Part shown: in pieces, positions 24,490-63,674 of the stretch | Layout: each line of letters begins with the position of its first letter | Position numbering within the stretch: position 1 is the stretch's first letter | Origin: Methanosarcina barkeri MS | GTDB lineage: Archaea > Halobacteriota > Methanosarcinia > Methanosarcinales > Methanosarcinaceae | DNA length: 64,000 nucleotides | Reading direction: 5' to 3' | NCBI RefSeq assembly: GCF_000970025.1 | Contig: NZ_CP009528.1 | Coordinates: forward strand, 3,831,168 to 3,895,167 | Translations under genes and position numbers: made by a program | Notes under the pieces: model-generated | Seen by the model: only the letters and a program-made list of their open reading frames with translations | Database searches by the model: none | What the model was told of the DNA's origin: nothing

Positions 24490-24552
24490 AGAAATAAACT
24501 GGAATAAGAGATAAACTGAGATTCAAAGGGGATTAATCAGAATAAAAAGAAA

Positions 24553-24650
24553 GGTTATATAAAAGACTGAAGAGTTCTGATCACAGGTAACCCAAAAATT
24601 TACCTGTGAGCCAGAAAAATTCTCAAAAAGGTATCTTCTCATTCTGGACA
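24553..24650 (+). ncRNA. Candidate small structured RNA
   Basis: A TATA-like GGTTATATAAAAG at 24553-24565 is followed at the archaeal spacing by two inverted repeats: CACAGGTAA/TTACCTGTG (24582-24608, nine perfect pairs) and CCAGAA/TTCTGG (24611-24647). No protein frame covers it. The gap 24490-24957 is otherwise featureless. This may instead be a terminator region for mdh. Confidence 0.35.
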
Positions 24651-24957
24651 GTTGCAGGAAAAAGGTAAGTAAGCTGTAGCCTTTGAGTAAACAAGAGTAA
24701 AAACAGCTTAACACTTTTAGAACTCCCTCTTCTTAGTTCAAACATCGGACAAAGAATTTAACAAAACGAGACCATTTTTATCTCTCGCTAGTTAAAATAA
24801 GGGGATTTATTATAATAATGATTAAGATTCCATTTTACCTGAAAATGTGAGATAAAACTAGAGATGACATAAGTTAGCAAAACTGTAAGATATATAAGTA
24901 TGTTTTTCATATAAGATTAGGATAAAGATTTAAATTAATTTACAAAGCAGGGATATG

Positions 24958-25215
24958 ATGCGCGCAGAACTTACATCACTTTTTGGTTTAAACGTGTACA
25001 CAAACGCTGGTGTTTATGTAGGGAAGTTGCAGGATCTCGTAATTGATATAGAAGATCAGAAAATTACCGGGCTTGCTATTTCGGATATCAATAGGGAACT
25101 TTTTGACCTGACTACCAGGGGCGTAATTATTCCTTACAGATGGGTTATAACGGCAGCAGATATCATAATAGTAAGAGATGTTATCCAGAGATACAAAAAG
25201 CGAAAAGAAGATTAA
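24958..25215 (+). CDS. PRC-barrel domain protein
   Basis: This is a single PRC-barrel domain of 85 residues (LFGLNVYTNAGVYVGKLQDL onward), a small beta barrel found in photosynthetic reaction-centre H subunits and in RNA-processing proteins such as RimM. Stand-alone archaeal copies are common and their role is not settled. A GCAGGGA site favours ATG 24958 over the ATG three bases earlier. The thg1 gene begins 17 bp after its stop, so they are likely co-transcribed, which hints at an RNA-related task. Confidence 0.88.
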   Translation: MRAELTSLFGLNVYTNAGVYVGKLQDLVIDIEDQKITGLAISDINRELFDLTTRGVIIPYRWVITAADIIIVRDVIQRYKKRKED

Positions 25216-25232
25216 GTTAATCTGAAAAGTAC

Positions 25233-25964
25233 ATGAAAGACCGGGAAATTTATGCTGAGATGCGCTGTATCCCTCCGGTGGTTGTGCGCGCGGACGGCAG
25301 GAATTTTAAAAATACACTTAGGGGCCTGGGCTTTGGAAAACCCTATGACCAAACTTTCGCCAGGGTAATGGCGGATACTGCTGAACTTTTTATTAAGAAA
25401 AGTGGTTTAAGCCCTCTCTTTGCTTACACTTTTTCGGATGAAGTTAGTTTTCTCTTTATGGAACTTCCCTTTGAGGGAAGAGTAGAAAAAATTGATTCTG
25501 TCACGGCAAGCTTTCTGGGAAGTGCACTTACGATAAATTTGCAACTTGAAAAACCTGTGGCTTTTGATTCTAGAATAGTAGTTCTTCAAAAAGAGGAGAT
25601 TCCTGCGTATTTTCACTGGAGGCAACTTGAAGCCTGGCGCAATTTTGTGTCAGCCTGGGGATATTATACGTTGAGGGATGAAGGAATAAGTAAGGTTGAG
25701 GCTTCGAAATGTCTCAGAGGAAAAAAAGAATGGGAAATCCATGAAATGCTTTTTGAGAGAGGAATCAATCTTTCAACTCTTCCTGCCTGGCAGAGGAGAG
25801 GAGTTATTATTTCAAAAGAAGAATACGAAATATCTGGCTTTAATCCCATACTTGACAAAGAGACAAAATCTCTGCGTAGAAGGGTCACTCAAAACTGGGA
25901 AATCCCGAATTTTAAATCTGAAGAAGGCATGGCATTTTTACAGAAACTTATTAATAGGAATTAA
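25233..25964 (+). CDS. thg1: Thg1 family tRNA guanylyltransferase / tRNA repair enzyme
   Basis: Thg1-family enzymes add nucleotides in the 3'-5' direction: eukaryotic members add G-1 to tRNA-His and archaeal ones repair 5'-truncated tRNAs. The catalytic core is visible: VVRADGRNFKN with the first carboxylate, KPYDQTFARVM, and AYTFSDEVSFLF with the second. Later EAWRNFVSAWGYYTL and a basic C-terminal part complete the 243-residue protein. In M. acetivorans this gene is reported to contain an in-frame UAG read as pyrrolysine; here the frame has no UAG. It lies between the PRC-barrel gene and tyrS, probably in one operon. Confidence 0.93.
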   Translation: MKDREIYAEMRCIPPVVVRADGRNFKNTLRGLGFGKPYDQTFARVMADTAELFIKKSGLSPLFAYTFSDEVSFLFMELPFEGRVEKIDSVTASFLGSALTINLQLEKPVAFDSRIVVLQKEEIPAYFHWRQLEAWRNFVSAWGYYTLRDEGISKVEASKCLRGKKEWEIHEMLFERGINLSTLPAWQRRGVIISKEEYEISGFNPILDKETKSLRRRVTQNWEIPNFKSEEGMAFLQKLINRN

Positions 25965-58377: not shown

Positions 58378-59520
58378 ATGTGGGAGGAAGACCTAAAGAA
58401 TCTTGATACGTTAAGCTTGTTTTCACCACCTCCGCTACTGAAAGGGTACATGTACGGACCACAGGAAGCCCATAAGGCACGGAACTCAAACAGGCTTTTA
58501 GCCATACGCCTTGAAACAAACAAATCCTGCAATCTCCGCTGTCGCTACTGCTATGCACAGAGTGGTGAGGACTCGGCAAAAATAGCCGATTTTAATAATC
58601 TCAAGCGTATTATTTAGGAGGCAAAAGAACTCGGGATCAGGTCTGTGGTTGTAATTGGGGGAGGAGAGCCGACCCTATACCCGAGTTTCAGGGATTTAAT
58701 AGCTTATATTGATTCCCTGGGAATAATCCCGGTGATTTTTTCGAATACGGTTTTGATGACAGAAGAGCTTGCAGGGTTCCTGTACAAACACAACGCCTCA
58801 GTAATGGGAAAGTTAGATTCCCTTAAGCCTGAAGTTCAGGACTACCTCGCAGGAAGAGCAGGAGCCTCCGAAGATATTAGGAATGGGCTTCGGAATCTTC
58901 TCAAAGTAGGCTTTTCAAAACCTGCGGAATCTGGAGAACTCCGTATGGGAGTTTCTTTCGTCAGTAACAAAATGAATCTGGAAGAAATTGAGGAGATCTG
59001 GCATTTCTGCAGGCAAAACAATATTTTTCCCAATATGGAAATTCTAACACCTACAGGCAGGGCAAATGACGAACTTGAGGATAAGCTACTCACGGCTGAC
59101 GAGATAAAGGAATATAAATTAAAACTGCTGGAAATCGACCGGAAATATTATGGTTATGACTGGCTGCCTTACACACCGATTACTGCTAGTGGCTGCCTTC
59201 AGCACCTTTACAGCCTGTATATCAATATAGAAGGAAATATCCGGCCCTGTGCGCCTACAAAGCTGGACGAACATCCTGCGCTTAGAGTTGACGGGGAATA
59301 TCCCTACAATGTAAATAAAATGAGCCTTCGGGAAATTTATGATTCTAATCTTTTCAAATATGTCCGAAACATCGATAAAATGCTCGAGGGAAGGTGCAGG
59401 AACTGTGAACATAATGAAGAGTGCATAGGCTGCCGGGGGTATGCTTACAGCGTAGGAGTAAAACATGGCATCGACCCTCTTAAAGCCCTCAGGATGGAAT
59501 GCCAGCAGTGTTTCAAGTAA
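58378..59520 (+). CDS. Radical SAM/SPASM-like enzyme with in-frame UAG (probable pyrrolysine)
   Basis: The open frame of 380 codons is interrupted once, by TAG at 58615-58617 (codon 80). Before it the protein has the cluster motif CNLRCRYC (Cys51, 55 and 58) and a helix NNLKRII; right after it the same helix goes on as EAKELGIRSVVVIGGGEPT with the GGGEP motif of the barrel. A C-terminal cysteine-rich region (SGCLQHLY, RPCAPTK, GRCRNCEHNEECIGCRG, ECQQCF) resembles a SPASM domain for extra clusters. In Methanosarcina UAG is decoded as pyrrolysine, so the full protein is the best reading; a nonsense mutation is the alternative. The EgtD-like gene follows on the same strand. Confidence 0.8.
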
Positions 59521-59661
59521 ATGGCAGATTGGTAATTGAATAGAAAAAGAATGGCAATTGAATGGTAAAAAAATGGTAAAAGCAAAACTCAGGCAATAAA
59601 TAAATTAAAAGAAATAAATAAAGATATGTACTGTTGAATAATTTGAGGAGAAGGTGAGAAA

Positions 59662-60687
59662 TTGAACAGTACAGAAAGAGTGGAGTTTGGACAGGTTTTG
59701 GGAAATAAGGAAAAGATAGTCATTACCAGCAAGGAGGACATAGAAGGCAGACTTTGTCAATGCCTGAAAAACCATGAACTGCCTGATTACTTTCTATATA
59801 TGGGCACTGGAGGAGCAAAAAACTGGCTGAAACTTGATGGGGCTAAGACGTTTCCTGTAGCCAGGCAACTCAAAATCCTTATGGAAAAAAATCTGGACTC
59901 AATCGTAAGATTTATTCCGACAGGCATGAGTCTCGTAAGCGTGGGTGTGGGAAACGGAGAGAAGGAAAGAATTTTTCTTGAAGCACTAGTAAGAAAGAAT
60001 CTAGCTGAAAACCCTTCCTCAGAAAAAGTGTCGATACGCTATTACCCCATCGATATAAACAGTGAATTTGTAGATATCGCTCTTGAAAAGGTCGATAACC
60101 TGCCTGTTGAAAAGAAGGGAATAGTTGGTTTCATAGAGGATATGGCCACTCTTAAAGAAAACTGGCGTCTCCCGATTCTTTTCTGCATTTTAGGAAATAC
60201 CTTTTGCAATTACGAGCCAGAGTTCATTCTTCAGCTTGTCCATGAAAACCTTGAGCGGGGGGACCTTTTTTTCTTCGATGCCAACCTGCTACCTACTGAA
60301 GGCACAGAGGCACAATCTGTAAGGAAGTCCGTACTGGGCACATATGCCTCAAGAGAGAATGCCCTCTTCAATATGTATCCACTGCTTCAGTACGGAATGG
60401 CTCCTGAAGATTTCGATTTTGAACTCTTGCTTGCGCATGTAAATTCAAGGATAGGGGGAGTATACAGGACAAGGAAGAGTCTGTATATCCTGAAGGATAC
60501 CGAACTCAAAATCGGGACAGAAACCATAGGCTTAAGGGAAGGAGACATCATCCGTATGGGTTTTACATATAAATATACATATGACCAGATTACGGCTCTT
60601 CTGGAAATTTGCGGATTTGAGATCCTCAAGGCTTTCCTGAGTGAAAACCGGACAAATGTCATAATCCTTGCAAAAAACCGTATATGA
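59662..60687 (+). CDS. EgtD-like amino-acid N-methyltransferase family protein
   Basis: This 341-residue protein matches the Methyltransf_33 family, whose known member EgtD trimethylates histidine in ergothioneine synthesis. Visible features are the SAM site SVGVGNGEKERIFLEAL (about 93-109), YYPIDINSEFV (about 129-139), LFCILGNTFCNYEP, and the later FDANLL segment. Substrate specificity cannot be read from sequence. A TTG start at 59662 has AAGGTGAG eight bases upstream. It lies 141 bp after the radical SAM gene and 32 bp before the amidinotransferase-like gene, so the three probably form one transcription unit. Confidence 0.82.
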   Translation: MNSTERVEFGQVLGNKEKIVITSKEDIEGRLCQCLKNHELPDYFLYMGTGGAKNWLKLDGAKTFPVARQLKILMEKNLDSIVRFIPTGMSLVSVGVGNGEKERIFLEALVRKNLAENPSSEKVSIRYYPIDINSEFVDIALEKVDNLPVEKKGIVGFIEDMATLKENWRLPILFCILGNTFCNYEPEFILQLVHENLERGDLFFFDANLLPTEGTEAQSVRKSVLGTYASRENALFNMYPLLQYGMAPEDFDFELLLAHVNSRIGGVYRTRKSLYILKDTELKIGTETIGLREGDIIRMGFTYKYTYDQITALLEICGFEILKAFLSENRTNVIILAKNRI

Positions 60688-60719
60688 AGATGACACGAAT
60701 CAAAAGGTAGGTTCAGGGT

Positions 60720-61697
60720 ATGGGTTGCAGGATAAATGGACTTGGTAAAGGCGAAAAAGCAAGATCAGGCATCGATTACGGGTGTGAAGAATTTGGAAGG
60801 CTGAAAAGCGTATTGATGCATACACCTGGAGAAGAACTTTCTCTACTCAATGAATCGAATTATAAACACTGGCTATATGATAAGGTTCCTGAAATTTCAG
60901 GGTATATTAAAGAGCATAGAGACTATCAGGAGTTGCTGGAATCAAACGGGGTCAGAGTCTATGAACTTGAAGAGTATGTGGACGAAAACACAGGTCTAAT
61001 GAAGAAGATGCCAAATCTAACTTTTTTACATGATACCGCAGTTATCTCCGAAAAAGGGGCTATTCTCTCAAGAATGCGTCCGCCTGCCAGGGAAAAGGAA
61101 GAGGTTGTCGTAAAGGAAGCTCTGAATAATCTGGGAATTCCTATTCTCAGCGAATTCAATGGAGGAAAAGGGTTTTTCGAAGGCTGCCTCCTACTCTCAA
61201 AAGAAACAGTCTTTGTAGCTGATACGGAAAGACACACTTACCCATTTATAAGAGAATTTGTTTCAAACATTCTCAAAGAGTTCAGTGAAGTTATTTACGT
61301 CCGTGTTCCAAAAGCCAGGAGGTACATGCACCCTGATACTGTCTTCAACAGGATAAGGGAAAACCTTGCCCTTGCTTATCTACCTGCATTTGAGGAAAGC
61401 TGCCTGTTTACGGAAGATTCTAGAGAAAAAATTGATTTTAAAGCTTTCATGCGCGAGAAAGGAATGGAAATCATTTCTGTTTCGGACTCCGAGCAAAGTC
61501 GTCTGGCCTGTTCATTTGTTCCTCTAGAGAGTGGAACTATTTTTCACTACGATACCTCATTTGATCAGAAAACCAGGAAAGACCTTGAAAATGAAGGTAT
61601 TGAGATTATTTCTTTTCACCCGGATGCACTGCTTGCAGGAGGAGGGAGCCTGCGCTGCCATACTCTGAGGCTTTGCAGAAAGAAAATTAAGAATTAA
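60720..61697 (+). CDS. Arginine deiminase/amidinotransferase-fold enzyme
   Basis: The 325-residue protein has the pentein fold of arginine deiminases: the start RLKSVLMHTPGEEL, the PNLTFLHDTAVI segment (canonical FTRD), the histidine in YMHPDTVF and the nucleophilic cysteine in GGSLRCHTL (Cys313). The EGGD substrate loop is changed to FFEGCLLL, losing the aspartate that binds the guanidinium group. It may therefore act on a substrate other than arginine. It is the last gene of the radical SAM/EgtD-like cluster, so it could tailor a guanidino or amidino compound. Confidence 0.82.
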   Translation: MGCRINGLGKGEKARSGIDYGCEEFGRLKSVLMHTPGEELSLLNESNYKHWLYDKVPEISGYIKEHRDYQELLESNGVRVYELEEYVDENTGLMKKMPNLTFLHDTAVISEKGAILSRMRPPAREKEEVVVKEALNNLGIPILSEFNGGKGFFEGCLLLSKETVFVADTERHTYPFIREFVSNILKEFSEVIYVRVPKARRYMHPDTVFNRIRENLALAYLPAFEESCLFTEDSREKIDFKAFMREKGMEIISVSDSEQSRLACSFVPLESGTIFHYDTSFDQKTRKDLENEGIEIISFHPDALLAGGGSLRCHTLRLCRKKIKN

Positions 61698-63290: not shown

Positions 63291-63674
63291 TTATGTATTG
63301 TTTTCATCCGCAGAGTCGTTGTCTTCAACTGTAACATTGTCAACTGCAGAGTCATTGTCTTCAACTGTCATATTGTCAGCTGCAGAGTCATTGTCTTCAA
63401 CTGTCATATTGTCAGCTGCAGAGTCGTTGTCTTCAACTGTCATATTGTCAGCTGCAGAGTCGTTGTCTTCAACTGTCATATTGTCAGCTGGAATGTCTGC
63501 AGCTACATCTTCGGTTTGAGTTCCATTTTCGTCTGCTACTGGAGCCTGGTCAGTCACTTCTTCTTGAGATCCATTTTCTGCTGTTGTGTCAGCATTCTTG
63601 TCAGAACAGCCGGCTGCAAAGACAACAGCACTAATGACAAGGAGCATTGCCATAATCTTTAACATTTTTTTCAT
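63291..63674 (-). CDS. Repeat lipoprotein with 12-residue units
   Basis: A 127-residue lipoprotein: signal peptide with the lipobox VFAAGC (Cys23), an acidic linker, then five copies of a 12-residue unit such as ADNMTVEDNDSA encoded by 36-bp DNA repeats. Each unit holds an N-x-T sequon (NMT, once NVT), so the outer part may be densely glycosylated. The acidic, flexible character suits a surface spacer. ATG 63674 opens the signal peptide. It stands alone. Confidence 0.88.
   Translation of the reverse strand: MKKMLKIMAMLLVISAVVFAAGCSDKNADTTAENGSQEEVTDQAPVADENGTQTEDVAADIPADNMTVEDNDSAADNMTVEDNDSAADNMTVEDNDSAADNMTVEDNDSAVDNVTVEDNDSADENNT

Follow-up and report, generated by a model that had tools for sequence, protein, structure and literature searches.

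The gene at positions 58378-59520 (+) of the window, the 64,000-nucleotide stretch of DNA analysed here, very probably encodes a functional radical SAM/SPASM enzyme in which codon 80, a UAG, is read as pyrrolysine, the residue being neutral and the codon acting as a bridge between sense codons. In the proposed mechanism PylS and tRNA-Pyl of the host would read this UAG to give the full-length protein, with pyrrolysine facing outward on the first radical SAM barrel helix and having no catalytic role at residue 80. A single mutation of the Ser codon TCG would have produced this codon, which would be tolerated since UAG has a sense meaning in the cell; some lineages of the clade would then have gone on to the Gln codon CAG.

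The frame comprises 380 codons followed by TAA, and the sole in-frame stop upstream of this terminator is the TAG at codon 80 (58615-58617, +). It is located between the CxxxCxxC codons of the radical SAM 4Fe-4S cluster site (C51, C55 and C58; 58528-58551, +) and the GGGEP codons of the SAM-binding motif (residues 94-98; 58657-58671, +), which lie in phase 3' of the TAG. The earlier note had described one frame crossed by a single UAG, with coordinates and motifs that prove exact, and had assigned both sides to the same domain, in agreement with the Pfam Radical_SAM match, which covers residues 49-207 (E 6.6e-20) and runs across the TAG. A second Pfam match defines a SPASM domain at residues 273-344 (59194-59409, +), and the core and SPASM cysteines are kept in 22 of 22 full-length orthologues. 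The product has the features of the radical SAM superfamily and of SPASM proteins (CxxxCxxC, GGGEP and the SPASM cysteines), and the best score against the NCBIfam radical SAM equivalogs (NirJ2, AhbD, W_rSAM_matur and MoaA) is 100.8 bits compared with a cut-off of 500.

Matches to the gene occur in 23 of 31 Methanosarcina genomes, comprising the 22 full-length copies and one degraded copy with three TAA codons (G027); the eight genomes lacking a match are in part incomplete. Among the full-length orthologues, five have TAG at codon 80, four have the Gln codon CAG, twelve a Ser codon (TCN) and one the Leu codon TTG. TAG is present in the window genome (G000), G004, UBA5 (G014), UBA293 (G013) and UBA402 (G015), of which three are MAGs and the other two are 2-contig assemblies, with otherwise open frames of 388 codons. 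CAG is found in G030, G026, M. spelaei (G028) and G003, TTG in G021, and the other twelve copies have TCG, TCC, TCA or TCT. That five genomes share a TAG at this codon is more than chance, and its presence in independent assemblies rules out sequencing error as its source. The earlier note proposed that either a sense codon or a conserved UAG in orthologues would decide the matter; both are found and none of the 22 full-length copies ends at codon 80, which supports its reading of the UAG as probably pyrrolysine rather than a nonsense codon. Homologues outside Methanosarcina have Ser, Arg, Asp or His at this position, with no in-frame stops in the family members searched.

The 300 codons 3' of the TAG show dN/dS values of 0.07-0.10 between TAG carriers, equal to those of sense-codon carriers, and 0.10 for each of the close TAG pairs G000/G004 and G013/G015. 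In G000/G004 13 of 45 changes in this part are nonsynonymous compared with 35 expected without selection (p ~3e-12), and in G013/G015 the corresponding figures are 16 of 54 compared with 42 (p ~3e-14). Provided that the TAG dates back to the split of these lineages, it follows that translation of the 3' part has continued, and been required, ever since. There is no further stop or frameshift in the 300 codons downstream in any TAG carrier, and a conserved coding frame under selection flanks the single UAG on both sides, as is expected for pyrrolysine-containing proteins. A recent nonsense mutation, with translation stopping at codon 79 and a dead 3' part, would account for the stop codon, and loss of the gene is evidently tolerated in the genus as seen from the eight genomes lacking a match and the degraded G027 copy. 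Such a pseudogene is nevertheless very unlikely, as the TAG is common to five species, purifying selection is as strong as in intact copies over a region free of added lesions, and a reconstructed TAG ancestor has yielded intact CAG genes; selection and phylogeny together reject it.

PylS scores above the family cut-off in 27 of the 31 Methanosarcina genomes, including all five TAG carriers, and a tRNA-Pyl with the anticodon CUA adjoins pylS in every TAG carrier and in both of the CAG carriers tested. In the window genome PylB, PylC and PylD follow the pylS locus, completing the equipment expected of a host of pyrrolysine-containing proteins. Reading of the UAG by a near-cognate elongator tRNA (e.g. 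Gln or Tyr) in place of tRNA-Pyl would leave an identical sequence signature, and the alternation of CAG and TAG at codon 80 is in keeping with it. This is most unlikely, given the dedicated UAG-reading tRNA and synthetase in every TAG carrier and the experimentally shown pyrrolysine in the thg1 product of the same genus (PMC2933860).

Stop codon usage was surveyed in ~820 kb of syntenic DNA from 14 genomes, a sample used in place of genome-wide TAG statistics. TAG is rare as a terminator in this sample, ending 10 of 339 conserved ORFs compared with 171 for TAA and 158 for TGA. Counting the interruptions that at least three genomes support, there are 11 TAG, 9 TGA and no TAA. The TGA interruptions lie in frames that, judged by eye, are antisense-looking, of low complexity or upstream of the start, and the same holds for two TAG cases. 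The other nine TAG cases fall into four families, namely the radical SAM gene (five), the EgtD-like gene of the cassette described below (two), a FilR1-type regulator (one) and thg1 (one). The clear interruptions within real conserved genes are all TAG and never TAA. The thg1 case, in which Trp TGG is replaced by TAG in the M. acetivorans-like genome G001, was recovered by the scan as a positive control; G001 is presumably M. acetivorans itself, from this allele among other grounds. Five independent gains of TAG compared with none of TAA or TGA have a chance of ~0.004, assuming the three stops to be equally likely. The thg1 gene of the window (~24500-25300, +) has the sense codon TGG at this documented neutral pyrrolysine site. 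The FilR1-type regulator of M. spelaei (G028, locus L141) has an in-frame TAG replacing Trp TGG at codon 51, which is TGG in every other sampled genome including that of the window.

The area immediately 3' of the TAG contains a GTG at 58645, 10 codons downstream, and the TAG itself is part of a Shine-Dalgarno-like TAGGAGG, an arrangement that could give a short N-terminal protein and, from this first possible internal start, a separate C-terminal one. The GTG, however, also occurs in almost every sense-codon genome, the GGAGG is absent from the TAG carriers UBA293 and UBA402, and the cluster cysteines would be parted from GGGEP leaving neither half a working radical SAM enzyme; a split gene with internal restart is accordingly rejected as extremely improbable. 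A hairpin is predicted downstream of codon 80 (z -2.0), but its strength does not track the TAG, being the same in CAG carriers and low in UBA5; a PYLIS-like, TAG-linked RNA element is rejected as specific on these grounds. This fits the published view that pyrrolysine insertion requires no mRNA signal (PMC8211752). The lack of a TAG-linked element downstream also counts against the UAG being a regulatory switch tying the enzyme level to pyrrolysine supply during methylamine growth. In favor of such a role, pyrrolysine-dependent decoding in Acetohalobium can vary with growth substrate (PMC8211752). Most species have no UAG in the gene and the UAG gives way to CAG, and a switch is highly improbable. 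That enzyme yield in TAG carriers would be set by pyrrolysine supply, coupling the pathway of the gene cassette described below to methylamine metabolism beyond a neutral bridge, is likewise considered very unlikely.

For a full-length product containing pyrrolysine, the environment of residue 80 is indicated by the AlphaFold model, which is weak overall (pLDDT 57.6) and was used only for the local helix call. Residue 80 lies within a predicted helix of residues 72-84 (local pLDDT ~75), in agreement with the helical position suggested in the earlier note, and is a variable position, probably outward-facing. The same note had placed the UAG next to the cluster-binding loop, which does not hold in a functional sense, since the codon is 22 residues beyond the last cluster Cys and on the first barrel helix. 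In a profile alignment the equivalent residue is Gln in SkfB, Arg in SuiB and Lys in MoaA, long polar residues as expected at a solvent face, and pyrrolysine, a lysine derivative, should fit beside these counterparts. A neutral substitution, raised earlier as a possibility, is favored by the variation of the residue (Ser, Gln and Leu, with Arg, Asp and His in distant homologues), by the reconstructed change of UAG to CAG and by the helix. As expected of a neutral, Thg1-like acquisition, the residue is unconserved and the sense codons TCG, CAG and TTG of relatives are each one step from UAG. The Ser, Gln and Leu orthologues, being conserved, are presumably active without pyrrolysine at this site. 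A functional pyrrolysine in the active site was considered and gains no support from position or conservation.

The history of the codon was examined with a gene tree built with codon 80 masked and a second tree from the pylS loci. The two trees agree, and both place UBA5 (TAG) as sister to a group containing G003, G026 and M. spelaei (CAG) together with G030 (CAG) and G000/G004 (TAG). A simple ancestral codon model, applied to one site in a small clade, gives TAG at the ancestor of this barkeri-type clade (UBA5 and its sister group) with a probability of 0.976-0.996, TAG at the ancestor of G030 and G000/G004 with 0.86-0.93, and TCG at the deep ancestor with 0.95-0.97. The best reconstruction has UAG changing to CAG at least once, and the TAG of UBA293/UBA402 probably arose from TCG on a separate occasion. 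TCG and CAG are two bases apart with TAG and CCG (Pro) as the one-step intermediates, and a route through Pro within the helix is unlikely, so that the UAG probably bridged Ser and Gln at codon 80.

The radical SAM/SPASM gene is the first of a three-gene cassette (58378-61697), followed by an EgtD/EasF-like SAM-dependent amino-acid N-methyltransferase (Methyltransf_33; 59662-60687, +) and an arginine deiminase/DDAH-like guanidino-modifying enzyme (60720-61697, +). The same order occurs in a Planctomycetota MAG (L048, 4822-7953), and an Omnitrophota MAG (L046) has the first two genes, at which the locus ends. No described pathway or function was found for this combination, and a literature search gave no paper joining EgtD, radical SAM and Methanosarcina; a plausible guess from the gene content is a pathway to a modified, N-methylated amino acid. 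The downstream cassette genes have no in-frame stops in the window and in UBA5. The EgtD-like gene has an in-frame TAG near its N terminus at the same place in UBA293 and UBA402 (L035, 7349-8386; L049, 7350-8360) and at another place in UBA289 (L037, 7251-8258). In UBA293 and UBA402 this could be either a further tolerated pyrrolysine or early decay of the cassette. Further along the window a small lipoprotein-like gene (63291-63674, -) contains a tandem repeat (DNMTVEDNDSAA).

According to a 2010 review (PMC2933860), Thg1 was the sole protein besides the methylamine methyltransferases in which pyrrolysine had been physically seen. The pyrrolysine of M. acetivorans Thg1 is neutral, and the residue is reported to be dispensable for activity (Heinemann et al. 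2009, as described in PMC2933860). A term search of the main texts of the pyrrolysine surveys PMC1242214, PMC1914089 and PMC3639795 gave no TAG-bearing radical SAM or Fe-S protein. The radical SAM gene is a second well-supported candidate for pyrrolysine outside the methylamine methyltransferases, and its relatives allow the codon to be followed from TCG to TAG in two lineages and from TAG to CAG. This suggests that evolution can pass through a recoded stop codon on the way between amino acids separated by two mutations, and that some ordinary Methanosarcina genes use UAG as a sense codon; annotation may split such genes or label them as pseudogenes.

A neutral pyrrolysine in an ordinary gene is already known from Thg1, and the radical SAM gene adds a new and phylogenetically richer case. 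Both have a single in-frame TAG in a conserved gene outside the methylamine methyltransferases with a sense codon in relatives. The TAG of thg1, which replaces Trp TGG, is reported in M. acetivorans only (PMC2933860) and is seen in 1 of the 14 genomes sampled here, whereas that of the radical SAM gene is present in five species, derives from TCG and has changed onward to CAG. As in MtmB, MtbB and MttB, the UAG of the radical SAM gene would be read as pyrrolysine by PylS and tRNA-Pyl; in those methyltransferases pyrrolysine occupies the active site and has a conserved codon, whereas residue 80 of the radical SAM protein varies and lies on an outer helix. The radical SAM core and SPASM cysteines are shared with SkfB, SuiB, MoaA, PqqE, anSME and the NCBIfam NirJ2/AhbD-like proteins, and in a difference with these SPASM enzymes the protein falls below every NCBIfam equivalog cut-off and its gene is accompanied by those of an EgtD-like methyltransferase and an ADI-like enzyme.
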